From Coprothermobacter platensis DSM 11748 (GTDB taxonomy: Bacteria > Coprothermobacterota > Coprothermobacteria > Coprothermobacterales > Coprothermobacteraceae): a stretch of DNA of 64,000 nucleotides. The notes beneath the pieces were generated by a model that saw only the letters and a list, made by a program, of their open reading frames with translations, made no database searches and was not told the origin of the DNA. Shown piece by piece: positions 2,994 to 61,268 of the stretch (position 1 is its first letter; each line of letters starts with the position of its first letter). The translations under genes and the position numbers were made by a program. The DNA lies in assembly GCF_000378005.1 (NCBI RefSeq), contig NZ_KB899040.1, positions 253,468-317,467 of the forward strand, written 5' to 3'.

Positions 2994-3440
2994 TTATGCT
3001 CTTCGTTTCAACGTAGCAGCTACGCTACATACTTTTTCTACCCAGTGAGGGTCTGATGCCCAGAGTTTTCCCATGGACTTTAATGTCCCATCCCTGTAGA
3101 ACACGCCACCTGGTGAGGCATAATGCGTTTTTATGTAGTCCGCTACGAAAAAAACGCCCTCTTCATAACTGCTAAACACTTTGGCTCCAGAAGGATTTCT
3201 ATCATATGCTTGAAAGCCGAATAGATTTTTTGTTCTCTTGCTGAGGGGAGATTTTCCCCATCCACTTTCCAATACAGCTACACTACTCAGCAAAACTGCA
3301 TTAACTCCAGATACTGTTTCTGCACAAGCGAAAGTGGGCCCGAGTGTCTCCATGGGCGTTCCTTTTAAGGCTCGCTGGAATTGGAGCCAGCTAATACCGC
3401 TGCTGCTTATTATCTTTGTATCAGGTGTCAATTCCCACAT
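2994..3440 (-). CDS. Glucosaminidase-domain peptidoglycan hydrolase (GH73-like)
   Basis: The 148-residue protein consists almost entirely of a glucosaminidase/FlgJ-like lytic domain. The likely catalytic Glu is in AVLESGWGKS, and the conserved NLFGFQAY and YEEGVFFVADYI segments follow. It should cleave glycan strands between N-acetylglucosamine and N-acetylmuramic acid. There is no signal peptide or wall-binding repeat, so the enzyme either needs a holin-like helper or acts only on lysis. The start at 3440 overlaps the end of the YvrJ-like gene by 20 bases in another frame, indicating translational coupling; AAGGAGG lies about 12 bases upstream. It is the last gene of a four-gene minus-strand cassette resembling a phage endolysin module, though no other phage genes are nearby. 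Confidence 0.85.
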   Translation of the reverse strand: MWELTPDTKIISSSGISWLQFQRALKGTPMETLGPTFACAETVSGVNAVLLSSVAVLESGWGKSPLSKRTKNLFGFQAYDRNPSGAKVFSSYEEGVFFVADYIKTHYASPGGVFYRDGTLKSMGKLWASDPHWVEKVCSVAATLKRRA

Positions 3441-3594
3441 TGGTTTTCACTGCCTCCTTAAGCAAGGTTATTTCTTCGGAAAGATCTTTTATAGCCATGA
3501 GCAGCTGGGTCAGAGTTTTGTTTATTTCTACGATGAAATACGCTGCCACTGCAATGGGAAATCCTAAACTACCGATAAGTTGAATTAAATCCAC
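3421..3594 (-). CDS. YvrJ-family small membrane protein, holin-like
   Basis: This 57-residue protein starts at GTG (3594) behind AGGAGG, with about 12 bases between. Residues 1-22 resemble the YvrJ family (LIQLIGSLGFPIAVAAYF): one membrane helix followed by an amphipathic, probably coiled-coil tail (EINKTLTQLLMAIKDL). YvrJ proteins are of unknown function and occur in Firmicutes beside DUF1659 and DUF2922 genes, exactly the neighbourhood here. Size, a single transmembrane helix and coupling to a signal-less glucosaminidase make a holin-like role attractive, but that is inference. It is too short for the 60-residue cut-off of most ORF lists and was found by reading the minus strand. Confidence 0.8.
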   Translation of the reverse strand: MDLIQLIGSLGFPIAVAAYFIVEINKTLTQLLMAIKDLSEEITLLKEAVKTNVGIDT

Positions 3595-10806: not shown

Positions 10807-12021
10807 TTGACATTTGTGGCAAAGTTGACAAAATGTTTGAGCTGGGTTTGGCGCAGATTTCTCGATTTACTGAACATACCACTCTGGCTTATGGCCAAGT
10901 TGGTTCCAAAAAGCGATCGTGTGTGGGTATTTGGTGCTTGGGCAGGAGATAATTTTAGCGACAATCCAAAATGGCTTCTAAATTATGTCAGAAGAGAATT
11001 ACCTCGAATAAGGCCTATATGGCTTACACGGCAGAGGAAGCTTGCCAAACTAATAAATGATATGGGTATTGAATGCTATTATGCTTATTCATTTAAGGGG
11101 TATTACTGGAGTGCTAAGGCCAAAGTAGGCATTGTATGTGTGGGTTTATCGGATATAAACCGATATATAACACCGCCCATACTGGTAAACACATGGCATG
11201 GTACTCCCATAAAGAAAGTCTTGGAAGATTTTTCAGGTTCGAAGTTAGCAAAAACTTCTCTGCAACGACTTTCTCCATTTTCTGAAGACCCACATCGTTA
11301 TGCTTTGGTGACCACCGGTTCTGAACCGGAAGCTGAAGTAATGAAGCGTTCATTTGGCGAAAAAGCTGTTGCGGTAACAGGCCATCCGCGGAATGATGCC
11401 CTGATCAACAACGATATCAAAGCGTCTGGTTTCATAACGCAGCAAGAATCACATAAAAAAATATTGTATCCGCCTACCCATCGCATGGAAGGAAGAGACA
11501 AGATATTTACAGAATTGGTTTTCCAGTTCATGTCTTTACAGACATTGCTCGATGACATGGATGCTTTTCTTTTAATCAAACTTCACTATTACCACAGAGA
11601 TGAAGCTAGGGAACTGTCAAGCCAGGTTACGGCTGATAGTCGAGTAAAAATTTTACTTGATGAGCAGACGCATGGTGATGTTTATCCTTTACTTGCTCAA
11701 ACAGATATCTTGATCACGGATTATTCAAGTGTGTACGTAGATTTCTTGCTGACAGAAAAACCTATCATCTTTTACTGCTTTGATTTAACAGATTACACTC
11801 AAAGGGAAAGGGGCTTTAATTTTAACTATCTTGAAGTTACTCCTGGCCCTAAGTGTTTTTCCTTTGATGAAGTCTCTTATTGGGTCAGTACTTTTCTCCA
11901 GGATGAAACGCCATATTTAGAGGACAGAAGGCGCTTGAAAAACACCTTTCATAAATGGCAAGACGGCCAGAATAGTAGGCGTGTAACAAGCAAAATTTTA
12001 GAGACGCTGGAGGCATTGTAA
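10807..12021 (+). CDS. CDP-glycerol glycerophosphotransferase family protein (TagB/TagF-like)
   Basis: The 404-residue protein matches the Glyphos_transf domain of teichoic acid TagB/TagF enzymes: [11 protein letters not shown] near the middle, [33 protein letters not shown], and in the C-terminal half [13 protein letters not shown] and the conserved [19 protein letters not shown], the CDP-glycerol site. It would transfer glycerol-phosphate (or another polyol phosphate) to a lipid-linked glycan on the cytoplasmic membrane face. The start is TTG at 10807, chosen because GGAGG lies 9 bases upstream. Its TAA overlaps the first base of the rmlA ATG. It heads the rhamnose operon, so a phosphodiester-linked rhamnose polymer is plausible. 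Confidence 0.88.
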
Positions 12022-12902
12022 TGAAAGGAGTAATACTGGCAGGAGGCAGTGGGACAAGGTTGTATCCTACGACGCAGGTTATAAACAAGCACTTTGTACC
12101 CATCTATGACAAGCCCATGATCTATTACCCCATGTCTGTTATGATGATGCTAAAGATAAGAGATGTGGCATTGGTAGTAAACCCACAAGATAAAGCAGGT
12201 TTTGAGCGTTTGTTTGGACATGGAGAGAAGCTTGGTATGCACATAGAATACCTTGTGCAGCAGAAACCCAATGGGCTTGCAGAAGGATTAGTATTGGCAG
12301 AAGATTTTATAGGAGAAGACAGCATTTGCTATATGCTGGGGGATAACATCTTTTTTGGTCATGATTTGCCGAACGTACTAGGAAAGGCGAAGGCAGAAGT
12401 AGAAGTGAATGGTGGGGCATACGTGTTTGCTTATCCGGTGAAAGACCCGGAGCGTTTTGGTATAGTAGCGTTTAACGATAGAGGGGAAGTGCAGTCCATA
12501 GAGGAGAAGCCTAAGGAACCGAAGTCCAATTGGGCAGTGGTGGGATTGTACTTTTACGACAAGCATGCTGTAAAGGTAGCAAAAGGAGTAAAGCCTTCAG
12601 AGAGGGGAGAGGTAGAGATAACCTCAGTGAACGAAGCGTACTTAAAGGGAGGGAAGCTCAAAGTAGGGTTGTTAGGGAGAGGGTTTGCGTGGTTTGATGC
12701 AGGGACCTATGATAGTTTCATAGAGACGAGCGAGTTTGTAGCGACATTAGAGAAGCGAACAGGACTAATGATAAGTTGTCTTGAAGAGATAGCATACAAG
12801 AATGGGTGGATAAGCATAAAGGAATTAATGGAGATAGCGGAGGAGCTAAAGAACACAGACTACGGAGAATACCTGAAAGAAGTGATAGAAGATGCCCTTT
12901 GA
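12021..12902 (+). CDS. rmlA: Glucose-1-phosphate thymidylyltransferase RmlA (copy 1)
   Basis: The protein has 293 residues: [12 protein letters not shown] is the nucleotide loop, [18 protein letters not shown] the catalytic Lys region, [11 protein letters not shown] the metal-binding Asp, and [14 protein letters not shown] and [10 protein letters not shown] line the sugar site. It makes dTDP-glucose, the first step of dTDP-L-rhamnose synthesis. The ATG overlaps the preceding stop, and its own 3' end overlaps rmlC by 11 bases. A second copy at 23677 differs at only two residues that I can see (V-G and K-R), so the two share very recent ancestry or are homogenised. Confidence 0.97.
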
Positions 12903-13461
12903 TATGAAACCTCTGAGCATAGATGGCGTTGTACTGGTTAAACCAAAAGTATTTGCAGATGAGCGCGGCTTTTTTATGGAACTAAGCAAAAACACGGATT
13001 TGCAGCGCTTTGGTATAGATACAAATTTTGTCCAAGACAACCTCTCTTATTCTCACAGAGGTGTTGTCAGAGGACTGCATTATCAAAAGAGACCTAAAAC
13101 GCAAGGAAAGTTAGTCACTTGCATGGTTGGCTCCATATTTGATGTAGCCGTGGATATAAGAGTCGACAGCCCCACTTTTGGTAAATGGGTTAGTGTGGAA
13201 TTGAATAGCGATAATCATCACATGCTGTGGATACCTGAGGGGTTCGCTCACGGTTTTCTTGTGCTGTCCAACGAGGCATTGGTCATGTACAAAGTGAGCG
13301 GTTCAGAGTACGCGCCAGAGTGTGATGCAGGCATAAGGTGGAACGACCCTACTATAAACATCTATTGGCCTGTAAAGAATGAAGACATGGTGATCATGTC
13401 TGACAAAGATAGAAAACTGCCAACACTTTTAGAACGTAAAGAAATGGGGGAATTGTTATGA
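12892..13461 (+). CDS. rmlC: dTDP-4-dehydrorhamnose 3,5-epimerase RmlC
   Basis: The 189-residue cupin protein has the RmlC signatures: [31 protein letters not shown] with the catalytic His, [15 protein letters not shown], and [13 protein letters not shown] with the second active-site region. It epimerises C3 and C5 of dTDP-4-dehydro-6-deoxyglucose. The start lies inside rmlA (11-base overlap) and the stop overlaps the rmlB start by 4 bases, so translation of the set is coupled. The first 14 codons survive as part of the fusion remnant at 24548. Confidence 0.97.
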
Positions 13462-14450
13462 GAATGCTGGTAAGCGGTGGAGCAGGATTTATCGGTTCTG
13501 CATTTGTGAGGCAAGCAGTAGGAAAAGGTCACAATGTAGCAGTGGTGGACAAGCTTACTTACGCAGGAGACTTAACCAGACTTGAAGAAGTAATGGACGA
13601 TATAACTTTTTATAAGGCAGATATAACCAATAAAGAGTTCATAGAGCATATCTTTAACAAAGAAAAGCCAGAAGTTGTAGTGCATTTTGCAGCAGAAAGC
13701 CATGTAGATAGAAGTCTGATGGATCCATATCCTTTCATAAACAGTAATGTCATGGGAACACAGGTGTTATTGGATGTGAGCAGAACAAAAGGCATTGATT
13801 TGTTCATGAACATGTCCACAGACGAAGTGTATGGAGATTTAGGCAAAGATGGGACATTTACCGAAGAGAGTCCGCTAAAGCCAAACAGCCCATACTCTGT
13901 GTCCAAGGCATCAGCGGATATGCTTGGCAGGGCATACTATAGATCGTTTGGTTTGCCGGTAGTAACCGTGAGGGCATCAAACAACTATGGACCGTGGCAG
14001 TATCCAGAAAAGTTCATACCAGTAATCATTTTAAAGGCTATGAATGGGGAGAAGATACCGATATATGGAGATGGCACTAACATAAGGGAATGGCTTTACG
14101 TAGAAGATTGTGCAAGCGGAATAATGGCAGTAATAGAGAAAGGCAAAGCCGGGGAGATTTATAACATAGGGAGCAAAGAAGAAAGACCCAATATTGAAGT
14201 AGCAAAGGCAGTGCTAACCATATTAGGGAAAGATAAAGATCTAATGGAGTTTGTAAAAGATAGGCCGGGACATGATTTCAGATATTCACTGGATGCAAGC
14301 AAAGTGAAAGCAGAAGTAGGGTGGACGGCAAAGACATCGTTTGAAGAGGGGATAAAGAAGACAGTAGATTGGTACGTTAGCCACATGAATTGGGTAGAGG
14401 AGAAGAAAGCATACTTAAGTGAATACTGGAAGAGAGCGTATGCAGAATAG
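13458..14450 (+). CDS. rmlB: dTDP-glucose 4,6-dehydratase RmlB
   Basis: This 330-residue short-chain dehydrogenase-type protein has the NAD loop GGAGFIGSAFV, FAAESHVDRS, the catalytic TDEVYGD and YSVSKASAD (Tyr and Lys), and the substrate segment NNYGPWQYPEKFIP. It converts dTDP-glucose to dTDP-4-dehydro-6-deoxyglucose. It overlaps rmlC by 4 bases (ATGA) and abuts rmlD with no gap. A fragment of this gene, roughly codons 17-90, is found again in decayed form at 24.6-24.8 kb. Confidence 0.97.
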   Translation: MRMLVSGGAGFIGSAFVRQAVGKGHNVAVVDKLTYAGDLTRLEEVMDDITFYKADITNKEFIEHIFNKEKPEVVVHFAAESHVDRSLMDPYPFINSNVMGTQVLLDVSRTKGIDLFMNMSTDEVYGDLGKDGTFTEESPLKPNSPYSVSKASADMLGRAYYRSFGLPVVTVRASNNYGPWQYPEKFIPVIILKAMNGEKIPIYGDGTNIREWLYVEDCASGIMAVIEKGKAGEIYNIGSKEERPNIEVAKAVLTILGKDKDLMEFVKDRPGHDFRYSLDASKVKAEVGWTAKTSFEEGIKKTVDWYVSHMNWVEEKKAYLSEYWKRAYAE

Positions 14451-15305
14451 ATGAAATACCTCATTATAGGGAAAAGTGGCCAGCTTACAAAAGCATTTCA
14501 ACAGCTTTTAGCAGAAAAAGAAGAACCATTTATTGCCTTGTCGCATGAAGAGGCGGATGTATCCAATTATGCCCAATTAAAAAATGTCTTCGAACAGTAC
14601 AAGCCCGATTTTGTACTTAACTGCTCTGCGTACAACAATGTTGATAAAGCCGAGATGGAGTACGAAGAAGCATTCAAGATAAACAGCATTGGTCCTTATA
14701 ACCTTGCTCTATTAAGCCAAGAGTATGGCGCCTTTTTGGTGCATTATTCCACCGATTATGTATTTGATGGAACAAAAACAGAAGGACTTTATACCGAGGA
14801 GGATAAGCCAAATCCACTGAACAAATACGGTTTGAGCAAGCGAGTAGGAGAACGTCTTAGTTTGGAACTTTGCACTAATAAAAGTATGCTTCTATTTAGA
14901 ACAAGCTGGGTTTTTGGTGAGGGGACGCAGAACTTTATTCACAAGGTGCTGGGATGGGTGAAAAATGAGGACGTGCTCAAAATAAGCGCAGATGAAGTGT
15001 CAGTCCCCACGTGTTCAACAAGAATCGCTCTGGTTACTTATGAAGCTATTAGGCAGGGCGTGAGTGGTTTGTACCATCTGGTATCGTCCGGCTATGCTTC
15101 GCGCTACGAATGGGCAAAAGCCATTCTAAACGTTTATGGAATAAACCGCGTGGTTATACCTGTGCCAGCGGATACCTTTGAGCTTCCGGCAAAAAGACCT
15201 TCGTTCTCGGCTATGAGCAATGAGAAGATAAACCACTTGTTGAATTTAGACATTCCTAATTGGATGGAAGAACTTTCAACCTTTGCCAGGAGTAAGAATG
15301 GGTAG
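14451..15305 (+). CDS. rmlD: dTDP-4-dehydrorhamnose reductase RmlD
   Basis: The protein has 284 residues: an N-terminal NAD(P) loop (IIGKSGQLTKAF), NCSAYNNVDKAE, the STDYVFDGTK motif and the catalytic YGLSKRVGE (Tyr and Lys), then the RTSWVFGEG segment. It reduces the 4-keto sugar to dTDP-L-rhamnose, the last step. It starts immediately after the rmlB stop and overlaps the following glycosyltransferase by 8 bases. No copy is present in the second, rearranged rml block. Confidence 0.95.
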   Translation: MKYLIIGKSGQLTKAFQQLLAEKEEPFIALSHEEADVSNYAQLKNVFEQYKPDFVLNCSAYNNVDKAEMEYEEAFKINSIGPYNLALLSQEYGAFLVHYSTDYVFDGTKTEGLYTEEDKPNPLNKYGLSKRVGERLSLELCTNKSMLLFRTSWVFGEGTQNFIHKVLGWVKNEDVLKISADEVSVPTCSTRIALVTYEAIRQGVSGLYHLVSSGYASRYEWAKAILNVYGINRVVIPVPADTFELPAKRPSFSAMSNEKINHLLNLDIPNWMEELSTFARSKNG

Positions 15306-16245
15306 GAATGTTGATGTTCTCATGGCTACTTATAATGGTGAGCCGTTTCTCAGAGAACAGCTCCATTCCATTTTATGGCAGGATTTTACAGATTTTAGAT
15401 TAGTTATTCATGATGACGGTTCTACCGATGCCACTCTGAATGAGATTAACAAAGCTGTACAGAAGCATGCACATAGCATTACATTACTAAATGACGGTGT
15501 GGTTTTAAGAAGCGCGAAGAAGAACTTTGAGCACCTACTTTCTTCAAGCGATGCAGATTACATTTTTCTCGCAGATCAAGACGATGTGTGGTTTCCCACA
15601 AAGTTAAGCTCTATGATGGAGACATTGCTGGGTGTTGAGAAAACAGTCGGTAGCGATGTTCCTATCTTGGTTTTTAGCGACTTAACGCCCATCGATAGTT
15701 TGGGCTACCCAAGGTCTTCCTCCATGTTTAAGCTGGAAAATGTTGATCCTTCTTTAACGTCTTTAGAGCTATTGCTTAGCAGAAACATCATCCCTGGCTG
15801 CAGTATGGTTTTTAATAGAGCAGCACTGACGTTTGCTTTGCCTTTTCCTCAAGAAGCTATTATGCACGATTGGTGGATAGCCTTAACCACTGCAGCCACA
15901 GGAAAAATCGTTTACTTACCCAAGGTTCTTGTTCTTTATCGTCAGCATGCACATAACACTATTGGGGTTAAAGACCACAGTTTGAAAAGCAGTGCCATGA
16001 GAATGCTTCGCGCTCCATCAAGGATGGTGACCCATTTTCGCAATTTGGGCAGTATTACTATCGCTCAGTCTGAAGCATTACTTCGCAGATTAAACGAGCG
16101 CAAAGGTGATAAAGAATGGCCCGGGATTCGTGTAGTGGAGCAGTATCTTGAATACAGGCATGCACATATGACAAAAAAGTTACGCTACTTGAAGATATTT
16201 TCACGAGATCGTTTTGAAATTGCGAGGTTTTTACTGTGGAAATGA
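15298..16245 (+). CDS. Family 2 glycosyltransferase, probable rhamnosyltransferase (copy A)
   Basis: The 315-residue protein has a GT-A fold: VDVLMATYNGEPFLREQL, the VIHDDGSTDAT nucleotide site, the DXD-type motif FLADQDDVWFP, and IMHDWWIAL. These motifs resemble rhamnosyltransferases of the RgpF/WbbL-like group. The start at ATG 15298 has AGGAG 5 bases before it, inside the end of rmlD; the upstream TTG is less likely. It probably adds a sugar, likely rhamnose given the operon, to a lipid-linked acceptor on the cytoplasmic side. A clear but diverged relative lies at 24816, in the same position after an rml remnant. Confidence 0.9.
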   Translation: MGRNVDVLMATYNGEPFLREQLHSILWQDFTDFRLVIHDDGSTDATLNEINKAVQKHAHSITLLNDGVVLRSAKKNFEHLLSSSDADYIFLADQDDVWFPTKLSSMMETLLGVEKTVGSDVPILVFSDLTPIDSLGYPRSSSMFKLENVDPSLTSLELLLSRNIIPGCSMVFNRAALTFALPFPQEAIMHDWWIALTTAATGKIVYLPKVLVLYRQHAHNTIGVKDHSLKSSAMRMLRAPSRMVTHFRNLGSITIAQSEALLRRLNERKGDKEWPGIRVVEQYLEYRHAHMTKKLRYLKIFSRDRFEIARFLLWK

Positions 16246-17459
16246 AGAACTACATAAAATTTGCGAGGTTTAGCTTTATTGCATTATTTACACTCATGTT
16301 TGCTTTGCCCAGTGCATCTTTTACCTATGTAAAGTATGTTCTGTTCGGTTGTCTTGCGGTGAGTTGTTTATTAATTTTGATAAAAGAACACCGAGAAATT
16401 CACTTGCCGCGTGATGTATTGTGGTCAGTTAGCCTCATCTCGTTGGCGGTGCTTATTTCTCTTATAACTGCCGCATGGCACCATACACTTAGCGCTGATA
16501 CGCTGTTTGAGTTACGCAGTTTTGTACTCATCGTTTGTGAAATCTTGGCTGGTATATTGCTTTTTAGCATCGGTGCTCTAAGATGGCAGGATTTAGCAAA
16601 GTTGTTCGTTGTATCGTTGTCCATTTACGGTCTTATAAAACTTTTGTTCTTGGTTTTTGTGTATTTCAACCCTGCGCAAGGCACAGAGCTAAAAAGGTTT
16701 GTCTTCCCAGATGCATTTATGGGAGGCTATGTCTTACTGAATGGTTTTTATCGGCTCGTCGCTGTCAACGATTACTACTTACCTATTGCGTACGTAGTTT
16801 GTGACTTAGCCAACTTTAAACGTAGCGGCAAGATAGTGGCTCGGATATGTATATTGACCGTAATATTTTTGAGTTTCTCAAGGTTTTTGTGGTTAGAGAC
16901 GGTTGTTCTGATTTTGGTGGACATGTTGTTTCACCAGGAGAAGGTTCTTTCATGGAAAAATGTTGCCTTTGTTGCACTGGGTTTTGTTGTCTTACTTACA
17001 GCGGCACAGCTTTTAGGTGCAGACATCATTGGTACGCTCCGAAGCCGTTTTTTTGTAGAAGGTGGTGTTTCGCTGAACTATAAGTTCAGTCAGATTGCAG
17101 CACTCTTGGGTGAGTTTGTTAAACATCCCGTTTTAGGAAAGGGCTTGGGGTCTTCCGCACAGAACTTTCCCAAAGGTTGGGCTATTAATACTGGCGTAGA
17201 AACGCATATCATCGGTTACTCTTATGAAGTTTTCCTACTCGTTATCTTGATGCAGTTTGGACTTGTAGGAAGCGCTTTGCTATTCAGTGGGGTTTATATG
17301 CCATTCTTCAGCGCTCGTATAACGAACAGGTTTGTTCTGCTATCGATCATTTGCGTAACAGCTTTCTTTGCATCTGGTTTTACAAACCCTGTAATTATTA
17401 ATGCCCCTACTGGTTTGTTTCTTTCTATGTGGTACATGTTTCGTTACGAAAAAGGGTGA
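16236..17459 (+). CDS. O-antigen polymerase/ligase-like membrane protein
   Basis: This 407-residue polytopic protein has about 10-11 membrane helices and one larger loop at about 130-180. The C-terminal half holds the Wzy-like segment FVKHPVLGKGLGSSAQNFPKG and a His-containing loop (GVETHIIGYSYEVFLL), as in enzymes that polymerise or ligate lipid-linked repeat units outside the membrane. GAGG lies 8 bases before GTG 16236; the ATG at 16242, which overlaps the previous stop, is the alternative. It sits between two glycosyltransferases of the rhamnose cluster, supporting a polymer-assembly role. Confidence 0.78.
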   Translation: MEMKNYIKFARFSFIALFTLMFALPSASFTYVKYVLFGCLAVSCLLILIKEHREIHLPRDVLWSVSLISLAVLISLITAAWHHTLSADTLFELRSFVLIVCEILAGILLFSIGALRWQDLAKLFVVSLSIYGLIKLLFLVFVYFNPAQGTELKRFVFPDAFMGGYVLLNGFYRLVAVNDYYLPIAYVVCDLANFKRSGKIVARICILTVIFLSFSRFLWLETVVLILVDMLFHQEKVLSWKNVAFVALGFVVLLTAAQLLGADIIGTLRSRFFVEGGVSLNYKFSQIAALLGEFVKHPVLGKGLGSSAQNFPKGWAINTGVETHIIGYSYEVFLLVILMQFGLVGSALLFSGVYMPFFSARITNRFVLLSIICVTAFFASGFTNPVIINAPTGLFLSMWYMFRYEKG

Positions 17460-17464
17460 TGATA

Positions 17465-18601
17465 ATGAAGAAGATTTCTATTGTTGGCATTGTGGGGCTG
17501 CCACCCAATTACGGTGGGTTTGAATCCTTTGCCGACCATCTGGTAAAAAAACTTGGCAGTAAGATGAAGTTTCGTGTCTACTGCAGTAATAAAAGTTACA
17601 AAGAAAAACAAAAAGAGTATTTTGGAGCGGAGTTGAAGTATATACCGCTAAACGCTAATGGCTGGCAAAGTGTGTTCTATGATGGGTTTTGCATGCTTGA
17701 TGCTATTTTCCATTCCGATATAGTTTTTGTGCTCGGTGTGTCTGGTGCTGTTTTCATGCCACTTGCCAGATTCCTATGTGACATCACAGGCAAACGGTTG
17801 GTGGTCCATATGGATGGCTTGGAATGGAAACGCGCTAAGTGGGGGCGCATGGCTCGGTCGTTTCTCCTTTTTAGCGAAGGTTTGGCAGCAAGGTTCTCAC
17901 ATGTGCTCGTAACGGACAACGAAGCAGTAGCAGATTATGCAGAGAAGCGTTACCATAAACGCCCTGTGGTTATTGAGTATGGAGCTGATGATGTTTTAGA
18001 AAAAGTGTTGATGGACAGCGATAAACAAAAACCCTTGAACCTTTTTGAAAACTATGCCGTGGCTGTATCTCGTGCAGAACCAGAGAACCACGTGGATATG
18101 ATTTTGGAGGCATTCAAGGAAATTCCTGATGTGAATTTGGTTTATGTTAGTAACTGGAACCATAGCCGTTGGAGTAGAGAGCTGAAAGAACGTTACAAGA
18201 ATGTTCCAAACATAAAAATGATTGGACCTGTTTATGACCAAAAAGTTCTTAACCGCATACGATCTCACGCCTCGTTTTATGTGCACGGGCATAGTGTAGG
18301 TGGAACCAACCCGTCCTTAGTTGAAGCCATGTGGCTCGGTCTTCCCGTAGTTGCTTACGATGTGCCGTTTAATCGGACGGTTACGGAAAACGCAGCTTTT
18401 TATTTTAGCAATGTTGAAGAGTTGGTGCAGGTAGTAAAAGCTTTGAATGAAGAAAAGCTCCGCGAAAATGCTGCTAAGATGCTTAAAATAGCAGAAAAAC
18501 GCTATTCGTGGGATAAGATATTCGCGCAGTATGAGAAATTGTTCTTGCGTGACATAAAGAATGCACAGGCAAAAACACCCCTCGGACCATCACCCAAATA
18601 G
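17465..18601 (+). CDS. GT4 glycosyltransferase with DUF1972 N-terminal domain
   Basis: The 378-residue protein opens with IVGLPPNYGGFESFADHLV, the hallmark of the DUF1972 group (GT-B fold) that includes streptococcal rhamnosyltransferases such as Cps2T. The C-terminal half has VSRAEPENHVDMILEAF and HGHSVGGTNPSLVEAMWLGLPV, the nucleotide-sugar E-x7-E-type site. It would transfer a sugar, likely rhamnose, to a lipid-linked primer. AGGG lies 8 bases before ATG 17465; the frame is open further upstream inside the previous gene. It is the last gene of the plus-strand rhamnose operon and converges on the LCP gene. Confidence 0.88.
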   Translation: MKKISIVGIVGLPPNYGGFESFADHLVKKLGSKMKFRVYCSNKSYKEKQKEYFGAELKYIPLNANGWQSVFYDGFCMLDAIFHSDIVFVLGVSGAVFMPLARFLCDITGKRLVVHMDGLEWKRAKWGRMARSFLLFSEGLAARFSHVLVTDNEAVADYAEKRYHKRPVVIEYGADDVLEKVLMDSDKQKPLNLFENYAVAVSRAEPENHVDMILEAFKEIPDVNLVYVSNWNHSRWSRELKERYKNVPNIKMIGPVYDQKVLNRIRSHASFYVHGHSVGGTNPSLVEAMWLGLPVVAYDVPFNRTVTENAAFYFSNVEELVQVVKALNEEKLRENAAKMLKIAEKRYSWDKIFAQYEKLFLRDIKNAQAKTPLGPSPK

Positions 18602-23615: not shown

Positions 23616-23676
23616 CTTAATTGCTTGAGGAATTCTCTTGGTTTGTTAGAGCCTTAGACATTAGGGAGGCATTGTA

Positions 23677-24558
23677 ATGAAAGGAGTAATACTGGCAGGA
23701 GGCAGTGGAACAAGGTTGTATCCTACGACGCAGGTTATAAACAAGCACTTTGTACCCATCTATGACAAGCCCATGATCTATTACCCCATGTCTGTTATGA
23801 TGATGCTAAAGATAAGAGATGTGGCATTGGTAGTAAACCCTCAAGATAAAGCAGGTTTTGAGCGCTTGTTTGGACATGGAGAGAAGCTTGGTATGCACAT
23901 AGAATACCTTGTGCAGCAGAAACCCAATGGGCTTGCAGAAGGATTAGTATTGGCAGAAGATTTCATAGGAGAAGACAGCATTTGCTATATGCTGGGGGAT
24001 AACATCTTTTTTGGTCATGATTTGCCGAACGTACTAGGAAAGGCGAAGGCAGAAGTAGAAGGAAATGGTGGGGCATACGTGTTTGCTTATCCGGTGAAAG
24101 ACCCGGAGCGTTTTGGTATAGTAGCGTTTAACGATAGAGGGGAAGTGCAGTCCATAGAGGAGAAGCCTAAGGAACCGAAGTCCAATTGGGCAGTAGTAGG
24201 ATTGTACTTTTACGACAAGCATGCTGTAAAGGTAGCAAAAGGAGTAAAGCCTTCGGAGAGGGGAGAGGTAGAGATAACCTCAGTGAACGAAGCGTACTTA
24301 AGGGGAGGGAAGCTCAAAGTAGGGTTGTTAGGGAGAGGATTTGCGTGGTTTGACGCAGGGACCTATGATAGTTTCATAGAGACGAGCGAGTTTGTAGCGA
24401 CATTAGAGAAGCGAACAGGACTAATGATAAGTTGTCTTGAAGAGATAGCATACAAGAATGGGTGGATAAGCATAAAGGAATTAATGGAGATAGCGGAGGA
24501 GCTAAAGAACACAGACTATGGAGAATACCTGAAAGAAGTGATAGAAGATGCCCTTTGA
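23677..24558 (+). CDS. rmlA: Glucose-1-phosphate thymidylyltransferase RmlA (copy 2)
   Basis: This is a full-length 293-residue enzyme with all RmlA motifs ([27 protein letters not shown]). It differs from copy 1 by two visible residues and a handful of silent changes. Homology to copy 1 extends about 15 bases before the ATG, into what was the last codons of the tagF-like gene there, and beyond the stop into the start of rmlC. This shows a segmental duplication rather than separate acquisition. It supplies the same dTDP-glucose as copy 1, so it looks redundant. The GGAGG before its ATG is the old tagF tail. Confidence 0.97.
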
Positions 24559-24813
24559 TATGAAACCTCTGAGCATAGATGGCGTTGTTATGAATACATG
24601 GAGGCAAGCAGTAGGAAAAGGTCACAATGTAGCAGCGGTAGGCAAGCTCACTTGCGCAGGAGACTTGACCGGACTTGGGGAAGTAATGGACGATATAACT
24701 TTTTATAAGGCGGACATAACCAATAAAGAGTTCATAGAGCATATATTTAACAAAGAAAAGCCAGAAGTTATAGTTCATTTTTCAGCAGAAAACTAGTTAG
24801 ACAGGAGCTTGAT
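24548..24813 (+). pseudogene. Fusion remnant of rmlC 5' end and rmlB interior
   Basis: The first 14 codons equal the start of rmlC ([14 protein letters not shown]). After a short unmatched stretch (24589-24600) the sequence jumps in frame to rmlB at RQAVGKGHNVA and follows it, with substitutions, to about 24813 (EKPEVIVHFSAEN, then a stop). About 576 bp between rmlC codon 14 and rmlB codon 18 are missing relative to 12.9-13.5 kb, and everything after about codon 90 of rmlB, plus rmlD, is gone. An 82-codon frame remains open, but it lacks the NAD loop and active site, so enzyme function is very unlikely. Confidence 0.92.
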
Positions 24814-24815
24814 GT

Positions 24816-25781
24816 ATGAATGATCGAGTTGATATAGTGATGGCAACATATAATGGTATGCCTTACATTCGTGAGCAGTTGCAGTCCATACTTTGGCAGG
24901 ATTACTCAGAGTTTAGATTACTTGTTCACGATGATGGGTCTAACGATGGCACCGTAGAAGAGATAAGAAAAGCAGCAGAGTGTTATCCAGATAAAGTTGT
25001 TTTCATTGAGGATGGTATCACATTCAAGGATGCTAAGAAGAATTTTGAACACGTCCTGAAGATGACTGAAGCTGATTACATTTTTCTTGCAGACCAAGAT
25101 GACGTTTGGTTACCTTCTAAAGTGTCTGTTATGGTAAAGGAGATATGTGAATTAGAGTACACGCATGGCAAAACTACTCCTGTACTTGTCTTCTCAGATT
25201 ATGCTTTGATTGATGAAGCTGGGTACTCGTTATCACCTTCTATTAAAGCTCTATGGAAAATAGACCCGAGTAGTAGGAAGGCAACATCCTTAGAACTATT
25301 GCTTAGTAGAAGTATTGCACCGGGTTGCGCCACGGCTTTCAACAAATCTCTACTACAACTTTGCCTTCCTATCCCTAAAGAAGCCATAATGCATGACATA
25401 TGGTTGCTCCTTATGGCTAGCGCGGTAGGGGTCGTAAAGTATGTACCTTTTGTTTTTACTCTTTATAGGCAGCATGGCAAAAACACGATAGGAGTGAAAG
25501 ATCAAAAACTTATACACAAGTTGGCAAGGATTCTAAAGTCTCCTGCTCAATCGATTGGTAAATTTGCTGCTGCAGGACCGGGAAAAGTTGGACAGGCTAA
25601 GGCTTTATTAACAAGGCTGGAAGAGCTTCACCTTGGGAATTCGAAATCTGCAAGAGCCATCACTGATTATATAGAATATCGTACCGGAAATATCGGATAC
25701 AAGCTGATACATTTTCCGAAATATGCGGTGGATAGTTTCACGTGGGAATTAGCGCGCTTTTTGCTTTGGAAGGGGAAATAG
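24816..25781 (+). CDS. Family 2 glycosyltransferase, probable rhamnosyltransferase (copy B)
   Basis: The 321-residue protein is related along its whole length to the enzyme at 15298 (roughly half the residues shared by eye). Shared motifs include VMATYNGMPYIREQL, LVHDDGSNDGT, FLADQDDVWLP, SLELLLSR, AIMHDIWLL and the C-terminal ARFLLWK. It has the same expected role in transferring rhamnose or a similar sugar, but divergence suggests a different linkage or acceptor. Its ribosome-binding site (AGGAG about 8 bases upstream of the ATG) is part of the decayed rmlB sequence, where the same bases formerly encoded the HVDRS region. Confidence 0.9.
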   Translation: MNDRVDIVMATYNGMPYIREQLQSILWQDYSEFRLLVHDDGSNDGTVEEIRKAAECYPDKVVFIEDGITFKDAKKNFEHVLKMTEADYIFLADQDDVWLPSKVSVMVKEICELEYTHGKTTPVLVFSDYALIDEAGYSLSPSIKALWKIDPSSRKATSLELLLSRSIAPGCATAFNKSLLQLCLPIPKEAIMHDIWLLLMASAVGVVKYVPFVFTLYRQHGKNTIGVKDQKLIHKLARILKSPAQSIGKFAAAGPGKVGQAKALLTRLEELHLGNSKSARAITDYIEYRTGNIGYKLIHFPKYAVDSFTWELARFLLWKGK

Positions 25782-27101
25782 TAGGCATGGAGTTAATTTT
25801 TGAGACTTTGCTAAGATATAAGCCATAGTGTATAAAGGAGAATATTAGGCTGGGCAAGTTAACTACTGAAGTTTAGAAGATTAATAGGTATCATTCCAAA
25901 TTGTTCGGCAGGTAAGTATTCATCGTTTTATAGATTACGTAGTTAGGCAGATGCACGATAATGATGCGTACATTACTTTGGATAAAAGATGTTCATTGCA
26001 GCAGCGTGGGGTGAACAAACGTGTTGAGTGTTCGCTGAACGTTGGAGCGGCCTTCTGCTATATGTACGAAATGTTAAAGTTAGAGTCATTGTTCTAAAAC
26101 CTCAGGGCAAAGGCTTGGCAAAAAATAGAAAATTGGGAAGCTTTTTAGACAAATAGTTATCAGTTCTGTGAGATTCAATTTGATCTCAAGTGGTATTAAG
26201 AGAGTGTCTAGCTCAAAAAATTCCTTCATAGACTATGTCGATTTCAAATACTGTCTTAGAATCAATGAGAAATGGTTAAATGTGGTGGATCAAAAACTTG
26301 GCGATTTCAAAACACGTTATTCTTTGCCGCGACGAACCACTTTGCCATTCGCAGGCATTATGTAACAACAAATAGAGTTGCAGTTGTGGAAAGAGTATTT
26401 CTCTCTGGACCTCAATACAGCATATATGACATGTCATGCTGTGCTGAAAAGTTAAATAGGGCAACACTTTCTGAGAATAACAAAGTAGGAAAACTCATGA
26501 ATGATTATTGACTCTATTTTGGTGATATTTGAGAACCTTCAAGGAATTTAATTTTTAACCTAGAGTACAAAAGGCGATGGCTAAGCCTATAGTAAAAGAA
26601 TTAACCATCAACAGCTTCAGCATACAATACCGTTTCATCTCGCGCAGGCGGGCATACTGTCCGTTCGAGAATAATCAGCTCTTATGTGAATTTGCGAACG
26701 AGTTACACTTATTAACCAAGTAATAGTTCTAAAACTTAAGGTATTCAGCTTGCTTTTAAATGCCATTCGGTATTTGAATTAAGATGTTTTTCTACAATAA
26801 AAGGACTTATAAAAGCTATAGCGTGCTGAAGCTATTCAATAACAGCCAATACATCTTGATTTCAGATGTTCTTACTGGTTTAGAATATTAAGGATGGACA
26901 AGACGATTCTTGTGCTGGATGCTTTTATTAAACAGGATATAAAGTTGCAATTGTAAAGTGTAGGAATCGTTCTTCAACTTATATGAAATGCCTTTGCATT
27001 TTGGTGTATCATTTCACAAGAAAGAACTAGATGTTATTTGTGGTCCTGATATTCATGAGACAATAGATTTTCATATTGTAGGCTTATAGGAGGGATGATG
27101 T
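25782..27101 (+). other. 1.3-kb non-coding, decayed region
   Basis: No intact gene, RNA gene or mobile element is recognisable. Short open stretches (26168-26365, 26272-26511) have protein-like composition but no family I know and are broken by many stops. The last ~100 bases encode MPLHFGVSFHKKELDVICGP and a few more residues before a stop, which reads like the C terminus of a lost gene. The region ends with the ribosome-binding site of the aminotransferase. It most likely holds the remains of one or two inactivated polysaccharide genes. Confidence 0.6.
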
Positions 27102-46177: not shown

Positions 46178-47047
46178 ATGAAAGGCATTGTTCTGGCTGC
46201 TGGTTTGAACACGCGTCTTTACCCTGTTACCGTGGCAGTGAATAAACAGCTGCTGCCCGTCTATGATAAACCTATGATCTATTACCCGTTGTCCATACTT
46301 CTCATGGCTGGAATAAGGGACATACTGGTCATCGCAGATCCATACAATGTTAGTGCATTCCAAAGACTTTTGGGCAGTGGTGAGCAGTTAGGTGTCAAGT
46401 TCAGCTATGCTGTGCAATGGGTTCCCCGGGGCATCGCAGATGCATTCATAGTTGGAGAGTGGTTTGTAAACGGCAGTAGGTGTGCGCTGGTCCTTGGGGA
46501 TAATGTGTTTTTTGGGCCCTCCTTGGAAAAGGCTGTGTCTGAAGCGGTAAATTTTGACGATGGTGCCATGGTTTTCGGCTATCCGGTGGAAGATCCGCGT
46601 TCTTTCGGTGTGGTGGAATTCGACCCCGAGGGCAACGTACTCTCCTTAGAGGAAAAACCTAAGCAGCCAAAGTCGAATTATGCCGTACCTGGCCTGTATT
46701 TCTACGATAATCATGTGGTTGAAATGACAAAGATGCTGAAACCATCTGATCGAGGGGAACTGGAGATAACAGATCTGAACAAAGCATACCTTTCGGAGAA
46801 TAAACTAAAGGTAAAGCTCTTAGATGACGACCTGCAGTGGTTTGACACCGGTACGCACGATAGCCTTTTGCATGCCAGTAACGAGGTGGCACGATATCAA
46901 AGAGATACAGGCACATATGTGGGATGCTTGGAAGAAGTGGCATACAGGATGGGCTTTATCAGTAAAGAGCAGTTAAAAGTGCTGGGTAAAAGATACAAGA
47001 ATACGGCTTATGGGCAGTATTTGCAGAAAGTCGCAGATGGAGGATAG
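46178..47047 (+). CDS. RmlA-like nucleotidyltransferase (copy 3, divergent)
   Basis: The 289-residue protein is clearly RmlA-like ([65 protein letters not shown]). The nucleotide loop is unusual: where RmlA has GGSGTRL this protein has AGLNTRL, with two of the loop glycines replaced. The catalytic Lys and metal-binding Asp are kept. It may still make dTDP-glucose or may use another nucleotide. It is only distantly similar to the two copies in the polysaccharide locus. It sits alone between direct repeats, so it looks inserted or left over from an old locus. Confidence 0.88.
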   Translation: MKGIVLAAGLNTRLYPVTVAVNKQLLPVYDKPMIYYPLSILLMAGIRDILVIADPYNVSAFQRLLGSGEQLGVKFSYAVQWVPRGIADAFIVGEWFVNGSRCALVLGDNVFFGPSLEKAVSEAVNFDDGAMVFGYPVEDPRSFGVVEFDPEGNVLSLEEKPKQPKSNYAVPGLYFYDNHVVEMTKMLKPSDRGELEITDLNKAYLSENKLKVKLLDDDLQWFDTGTHDSLLHASNEVARYQRDTGTYVGCLEEVAYRMGFISKEQLKVLGKRYKNTAYGQYLQKVADGG

Positions 47048-59353: not shown

Positions 59354-59511
59354 CCTTTCGCTTAAAATCATCGGAGCTTAAGATGGCTGCGTCGGAAACA
59401 TAGAGAAGATGAAATGAGAGAGTTGCAGGCTGTTCTGAAATTTGCTCAAAAGCGTATCGATGGTGCCTCAGGGAAAACAAAGGATAAAATTCAGCAGGTT
59501 ATAGATTTTAT
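59354..59511 (+). pseudogene. Partial copy of the coiled-coil gene at 60594
   Basis: About 155 bases match 60632-60786 closely (for example GATGGCTGCGTCGGAAACA and GGATAAAATTCAGCAGGTTA are shared exactly). A one-base insertion near 59401 and several substitutions introduce stops, and neither start nor end of the gene is present. It lies between the phosphoesterase gene and the EamA transporter gene. Confidence 0.92.
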
Positions 59512-59528
59512 CAGCAAACAAGTTGTTG

Positions 59529-60410
59529 CTATCCTGTTTGTGGGTTAGTGGCTGACAGATACGTTCCTACGATCATCAGCGATAGTGCTACGGGAAACAG
59601 CGAATTCGGTGGTGTTCCAAACAAGAAGAAAGAAAGAACAACGCCTATGAATGGTCCCACGGCATAGAAGGTGCTTGTGCGTGCCGCCCCTAAGTAACGC
59701 TGTGCAGAAACATAGAAAAAGATGCTGAGTCCATATGCAATAAAGCCGAGGAACAAAGCAGCGAAAACATGTGAAATGCTGGAGCTAATTTGTCCAAACG
59801 ATGCTGCAATGCAAAGAGAACCAAAACCTGAGCAGAAACCTTTTATGACAACAACTTCCATGGGGTCTCTCATTGAGAGCATCCTGGTGCAGTTGTTTTC
59901 CAAACCCCAACAGGTAGTGGCTGCAAGTGCAAGAATAGAACCAATGGATAAAGTGTAGTTAGCATCAGCCTCTGTGGACAGAAGTATGCAGGAAATGGTA
60001 ATAAAGAATATTGCAGTCCAGAGTCTTGTACTTATATGTTCTTTAAAGAGTATGGATGCGATGAAAGCTGTGGCAACGATTTCAAAGTTGCCCAATAGAG
60101 AAACGGTGGCTGCGTTGGACATGCTTAGTCCGTACATGAGCAGTATTGGAGCTGCCACGTCCAAAACGACCATTCCTATGACATATGGGAAATCGCTTCT
60201 TAAAATGTGTGTTTCACTTTTCCCCTTACCTAAGATGCTTCTGATTACCATAAGAACAAAAACGCCTATACCTGCACCAATGTAGAGAAGTGCTGCCATT
60301 AGAGTTGGGCTAATGTCACCAAGAAGGATTTTAGAAAATGGAGAACTCAAACTATAAAGTGCAGCGGCGAGAACTGCCAGAAAAGTCGCTCTTGTTTCTT
60401 GTGCGTTCAT
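59529..60410 (-). CDS. EamA/DMT-family transporter
   Basis: The 293-residue protein has ten predicted membrane helices in two EamA repeats, starting ETRATFLAVLAAALYSLSSPFSKILL and with the second half beginning near SIGSILALAATTCWGLENNC. Members export amino acids, nucleotides or other metabolites; the substrate is unknown. It is the only minus-strand gene between 55.9 and 64.0 kb and is flanked by a complete and a partial copy of the coiled-coil gene, suggesting it arrived with a duplication. Confidence 0.9.
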   Translation of the reverse strand: MNAQETRATFLAVLAAALYSLSSPFSKILLGDISPTLMAALLYIGAGIGVFVLMVIRSILGKGKSETHILRSDFPYVIGMVVLDVAAPILLMYGLSMSNAATVSLLGNFEIVATAFIASILFKEHISTRLWTAIFFITISCILLSTEADANYTLSIGSILALAATTCWGLENNCTRMLSMRDPMEVVVIKGFCSGFGSLCIAASFGQISSSISHVFAALFLGFIAYGLSIFFYVSAQRYLGAARTSTFYAVGPFIGVVLSFFLFGTPPNSLFPVALSLMIVGTYLSATNPQTG

Positions 60411-60593: not shown

Positions 60594-61268
60594 TTGGCAG
60601 AAAAAGACAAATTGGATGAGGTTTTGGAGTACTTCCGTTTAAAATCATCTGAACTTAAGATGGCTGCGTCGGAAACATTGGAAGATGAAATAAAAGAGCT
60701 GCAGGATGTTCTGAAATTTGCTCAGAAGCGTATCGATGCTGCCACAGGGGAAACAAAGGATAAAATTCAGCAGGTTATAGATTTTACTCAACAAAAGATT
60801 GATGAATTAACGGTTCAGGCTGATTTAGGCACATCCCAAGCAAGGGACGTCGCTGTGTCTTTAGCTGATGAAATGGATGAACTTATAGATGATTTGCAGC
60901 GTTCAGATCTGACGAAGAAAGCTGGAGATGTGGCTAAAAGTGTGGGGAATCTGCTGGGCACTATTGGGAAGAGAGTTGGAAAAGGTGCATCAGATCTATC
61001 AAAAACAATAAGCATAAGAGCAGAACTTAGCAAATTGAATAATAGAAGAAAAGATTTGATAACACAAATAGGTGAAAGCGTTTACAAAGGGCTGCATGTC
61101 TCTGGAAGTTTGGTAGTAACGGATGACTTAGTTAAACTTGCTAAAGAAGTAGAATCTGTAGAAAACGATATAAATAACAAAAAAGCAGAGCTTGCAAAAG
61201 TAGGGAAAGAAGAAAACCTGTCTGATGAACAAATAAGCAAGATTATTGAGGACGTGGACAAGGAATAG
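60594..61268 (+). CDS. Coiled-coil protein of unknown function
   Basis: The 224-residue protein is charged and almost wholly helical. The N-terminal half has heptad-like repeats (LEDEIKELQDVLKFAQKRI; TKDKIQQVIDFTQQKIDEL), the middle a Gly-rich amphipathic segment (AKSVGNLLGTIGKRVGKGAS), and the C-terminal half another coiled coil (SVENDINNKKAELAKVGKEE). No family is recognised. The TTG at 60594 is chosen since AAGGGG lies 8 bases upstream and overlaps the alternative GTG. Rubrerythrin follows after 50 bases. Confidence 0.78.
   Translation: MAEKDKLDEVLEYFRLKSSELKMAASETLEDEIKELQDVLKFAQKRIDAATGETKDKIQQVIDFTQQKIDELTVQADLGTSQARDVAVSLADEMDELIDDLQRSDLTKKAGDVAKSVGNLLGTIGKRVGKGASDLSKTISIRAELSKLNNRRKDLITQIGESVYKGLHVSGSLVVTDDLVKLAKEVESVENDINNKKAELAKVGKEENLSDEQISKIIEDVDKE

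Follow-up and report, generated by a model that had tools for sequence, protein, structure and literature searches.

Gene remnants are known from O-antigen clusters, such as those of wzy in Salmonella groups B1 and D1 (PMC3715488), and remnants left in polysaccharide clusters by serial deletion are an established phenomenon. Those remnants resemble the present case in that partial genes, produced by serial deletion in a sugar-polymer cluster, adjoin working glycosyltransferase genes. The Shine-Dalgarno (SD) sequence of a downstream gene is also reported to lie frequently inside the coding sequence of its upstream neighbor when the gene spacing is 1–4 bp (PMC2784483), and there, as here, it is codons of the upstream gene that form the SD. 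The remnant described below differs from the wzy remnants in that two genes are joined in frame and in that the following gene has its candidate SD in the remnant's end. From the second kind of case it differs in that a relic stands in the place of the upstream gene, with the SD immediately past the relic's new stop codon. The most similar operon is rmlACBD (L041) of the congeneric genome G002, which has the same order A-C-B-D and an RmlB with 78% amino acid identity but which, unlike the locus considered here, is intact and has no scarred second copy in view. Literature searches by topic and by organism retrieved no publication on this locus, and nothing wider is claimed.

The locus lies in a window of 64,000 nucleotides, which is the whole stretch of DNA that was analyzed, from a 1.42-Mb genome. 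Its features are the following.

12021–15305, plus strand: intact rmlA-rmlC-rmlB-rmlD operon, taken as the model (Pfam; NCBIfam for rmlA and rmlB).
15298–16245, plus strand: GT2 paralogue after rmlD, with 48% amino acid identity to GT2' over 321 columns.
23665–24588, plus strand: copied block with ribosome-binding site, complete rmlA' (23677–24558) and, from 24548, the initial 41 nt of rmlC.
24548–24796, plus strand: in-frame rmlC-rmlB relic open reading frame of 82 amino acids with stop codon TAG (translation; weak Epimerase match).
24589–24600, plus strand: 12-base filler, probably derived at its 5' end from the rmlC/rmlB overlap (self-BLAST, genome search, match test).
24601–24817, plus strand: rmlB remnant, codons 18–89.
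24803–24807, plus strand: candidate SD AGGAG (from sequence), within the R85-S86 codons of the remnant and 8 nt upstream of the GT2' start.
24816–25781, plus strand: GT2', a GT2 family glycosyltransferase gene (Pfam PF00535; N-terminus aligned with the paralogue).

Self-BLAST of the window gives two blocks of similarity, one of 924 nt without gaps and with 98.6% identity (23665–24588 versus 12009–12932; E 0), the other of 217 nt with 88.9% identity (24601–24817 versus 13508–13724; E 1e-76). Expectation values of this size exclude chance similarity. An earlier note, made from the letters of the sequence, had described an rmlC-rmlB fusion scar here and had proposed an alignment with the intact operon; the two blocks flanking a gap bear out the scar. 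The note's unmatched stretch of 12 bases is also seen, as the blocks end at 24588 and resume at 24601, and rmlB does resume at its codon 18. Other figures need adjustment: the rmlB piece ends with codon 89 rather than at about codon 90, the missing part of the model is 575 bp (12933–13507) and not 576 bp, with 12 other bases in its place, and the copied segment begins not at 24548 but far upstream, 12 nt before rmlA' and just 5' of the rmlA' GGAGG. The product of rmlA' matches the RmlA family above the NCBIfam cut-off. Homology to the intact copy is certain on either side of the internal gap, and the segment is thus a deletion-derived remnant. The rmlC-rmlB junction is in frame, and the relic frame begins within the last codons of rmlA', just as rmlC begins within rmlA; its TAG is the former rmlB codon 82 and stands 19 nt upstream of GT2'. 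The scar, left by an in-frame deletion within a duplicated rml block, is real; as an instance of gene decay it is neat but commonplace. A search of the window's own genome gave only these copies.

The 12-base filler occurs nowhere else in the genome than at the scar itself. However, the four bases to its left together with its first five, TTGTTATGA at 24585–24593, are identical to 13453–13461, where the rmlC stop overlaps the rmlB start. A left-anchored match of nine was reached in 1.5% of 20,000 trials with random 12-mers (P 0.015), and the same 9-mer is present at two further sites in the window. Part of the filler thus probably derives from the rmlC/rmlB overlap. If the match is real, it follows that the ATG at 24590 is the start codon of rmlB itself and that there were two deletions, not one. 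A simple second microhomology finds no support, since on its right side the filler matches the deleted stretch over 6 nt at best (P 0.62).

Consider now how the remnant has changed. With G002 serving as outgroup to polarize the 24 differences between scar and intact rmlB, the scar branch receives 16 (ten replacements and six silent) and the intact branch five (one replacement and four silent); three are undecided. The excess of replacements (10/16 versus 1/5), together with the premature stop at H82, indicates that coding constraint was lost on the remnant branch, although the numbers are small. Residues replaced in the relic include D31, Y35, A78 and S81. Over the whole rmlB piece, 11 of the 24 differences are silent, against an expectation of 27.5% per change without constraint (P 0.04); outside codons 84–87 the silent share is 7/19 as counted in that test (P 0.25).

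The two parts of the copy also appear to differ in age. Between rmlA and rmlA' 12 codons differ, ten silently and two by replacement (V129G, K209R). Of the silent sites, about 44 in the rmlB piece and about 187 in rmlA, 11 have diverged in each (Fisher P 0.0005), where the rmlA count takes in the third base of codon 129. On these sequence counts, the rmlA copies look younger than the rmlB piece, as would be expected if gene conversion held rmlA and rmlA' alike up to the edge of the deletion; codon selection is the alternative. The contrast between 98.6% for rmlA' and 89% for the rmlB piece may, in other words, reflect local gene conversion that stopped at the deletion edge. Divergence within the GT2 pair far exceeds that of the rmlA or rmlB pairs, from which it follows that GT2' was not simply copied along with them in the recent duplication, unless its evolution has been unusually fast. 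Differences along 24601–24817 are clustered, being dense in codons 29–43 and 74–89 and sparse in codons 44–73. Tests of patchiness in this piece gave P 0.27 for the longest clean run, P 0.03 for the three longest runs and P 0.007 for 30-nt bins; the clustering perhaps reflects patchy gene conversion.

The start of GT2' at 24816, as the earlier note had it, is well supported, because the N-terminus aligns with that of the post-rmlD GT2 from the first residues (MNDRVDIVMATYNG for GT2', MGRNVDVLMATYNG for its paralogue). AGGAG is an SD core at normal spacing ahead of this start codon. The scar thus bears the candidate SD of GT2' and ends at its start codon, a statement supported by the sequence. 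How strongly such a core speaks for use can be judged from two comparisons. In a sample of 35 window genes, chosen by hand and including GT2' and rmlA', an SD core of at least 5 nt was in range in 17 and absent in 18. About half of the sampled genes therefore lack a strong SD, so that one is not strictly required for GT2'. When junctions were simulated throughout the window's rmlB, on the other hand, AGGAG or GGAGG at 5–9 nt arose in about 1%, and throughout the G002 rmlB in 28/976; this rarity is a hint that the junction was retained as functional. The GT2' start region folds no better than its shuffles (z +1.35), which leaves a regulatory leader structure unsupported; a small predicted stem at the start covers the last two bases of the SD.

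The history proposed for the locus, to which a probability of about 0.66 is given as a whole, runs as follows. A copy of at least the segment from ribosome-binding site through rmlA and rmlC to rmlB codon 89 would have been placed directly upstream of a GT2 paralogue of greater age. Deletions, plain in the alignment as a gap, would then have taken away the greater part of rmlC along with the beginning of rmlB. There were probably two of them, and the first would have run from a TTGT in early rmlC to the TTGT in the rmlC/rmlB overlap. Selection, recent gene conversion or both would have kept rmlA' intact and nearly identical to rmlA, while the rmlB piece lost its function and was kept as the in-frame relic frame seen today. 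Translation of GT2' would proceed from the relic's AGGAG, possibly aided by ribosomes that terminate 19 nt upstream, and this SD would probably have been present in the rmlB coding sequence beforehand rather than made by decay.

The last step turns on three bases. At the SD, scar and intact rmlB differ at 24802, 24805 and 24808, all silently: codons 84–86 read GATAGAAGT (GAT-AGA-AGT) in the intact copy and GACAGGAGC (GAC-AGG-AGC) in the scar, and both encode D-R-S. The SD could have arisen on the scar branch, with GATAGAAGT changed to GACAGGAGC during decay of the remnant and perhaps selected for better translation of GT2'. The intact copy has the former sequence, the distant genome G018 likewise reads GAT AGA AGT, and the scar branch carries most of the differences. 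Yet the change at codon 87 (CTG/TTG) is also silent, so that all four changes in codons 84–87 are, an outcome with P of about 0.01 without coding constraint (0.0006 to 0.025, varying with transition share and starting codons), in codons that were picked after inspection of the data. Furthermore, the intact rmlB of G002 has the scar's nine bases here. G002 is the sole congeneric genome with an orthologous rmlB, and only 69 of 119 twofold sites are equal between it and the window's rmlB; as third bases are thus near saturation, single silent changes can be polarized only weakly, and the outgroup alters the odds by a factor of no more than about 2.6. Taken together, the all-silent codons and the shared bases in G002 favor a codon pair that was SD-like before the deletion, and creation of the SD by decay of rmlB is unlikely. 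Retention of the older coding sequence by the scar, with change in the intact rmlB, is no less likely than the reverse. GT2' thus probably took over an SD-like codon pair already present in rmlB, though the direction is not proven.

The SD and leader could also belong to the GT2' gene itself, in which case the last 21 bases (24797–24817) resemble rmlB fortuitously and the breakpoint lies near 24796. Similarity is indeed lower at the end, with eight differences in the last 24 bases versus 16 in the first 193, and the other GT2 likewise has CAGGAG upstream of its start. But in this stretch the frame retains L-D-R-S-L-M-Y where the intact copy has V-D-R-S-L-M-D, and the G002 rmlB carries precisely GACAGGAGC at the same place. 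This is the least likely of the alternatives. Another is that GT2' is untranslated, or translated mainly by coupling to the relic frame or from another signal, with AGGAG incidental. The relic frame overlaps rmlA' and stops close upstream of GT2', and the sampled genes that do without an SD core fit the idea; against it stand the normal spacing of AGGAG and the GT2' frame, open over its full length of 321 amino acids, and it is considered improbable, more so than an SD made by decay. Translation of GT2' from the AGGAG formed by the relic's Arg-Ser codons remains the probable reading. The earlier note had the sequence for HVDRS turning into AGGAGC and the decayed end providing the ribosome-binding site. 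A candidate SD does lie in the relic's end, but AGGAGC is only the R-S codon pair, with H82 now TAG, V83 now Leu and D84-R85-S86 unchanged as amino acids, and the silent differences and the same bases in G002 lean against an origin by decay. "Decayed end" is better put as relic end, in which an SD-like pair of codons was probably present from before.

The scar illustrates on a small scale how translation within a sugar-polymer cluster can be rewired by duplication, by deletion and by where a junction falls. It also calls for caution, since a signal in a relic may come from coding sequence by inheritance and not from decay. A tentative formulation, held at somewhat less than even odds, is that a silent variant in the codons for Asp-Arg-Ser, part of a conserved motif of the enzyme RmlB, amounted to a dormant SD, which turned into the working ribosome-binding site of another gene once truncation had brought the start codon of that gene to 8 nt downstream, while the intact paralogue drifted away from SD-like codons. 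No general understanding is altered by the scar.

A DNA search with scar plus GT2 found neither an intact nor an intermediate second locus in 41 genomes. Four of these matched, the window's own included, and the matches in the others cover only the rmlB part (G002 and G018) or a 25-base piece (G005). The absence of a scarred copy in G002 is weak, because that genome is 78% complete and in 160 contigs. In L041 (reverse complement, about 3226–3483), rmlD is succeeded by a short, truncated piece resembling GT2, as though a GT2 gene had formerly followed there too. Within the phylum (nine genomes searched), a close GT2' paralogue was found only in the window's own genome. Among named genomes, two loci out of 26 pattern matches gave protein relatives of GT2', in a Halioglobus MAG (42%) and in Bifidobacterium (36%), which are too distant to date the junction.

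The neighborhood of the scar is a polysaccharide cluster. By Pfam, 12021–18601 holds rmlA, rmlC, rmlB, rmlD, GT2, a weak O-antigen-ligase-like protein and GT4, and beyond this first rml set follow GT2, rmlA', the scar and GT2', then genes for an aminotransferase, a nucleotide-sugar dehydrogenase, an oxidoreductase and a hexapeptide transferase. The 1.3 kb between GT2' and the aminotransferase gene (25782–27101) are without long open reading frames; they have no DNA match beyond themselves in nine genomes, tblastx at E 0.01 matched them to nothing else in the window, and they are possibly decayed genes. A third RmlA, at 46178–47047, has 49% amino acid identity to the first and scores above the NCBIfam rmlA cut-off. 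Farther on, self-BLAST shows a direct repeat of about 165 bases with 90% identity (59355–59518 and 60632–60795) flanking an open reading frame at 59529–60410.
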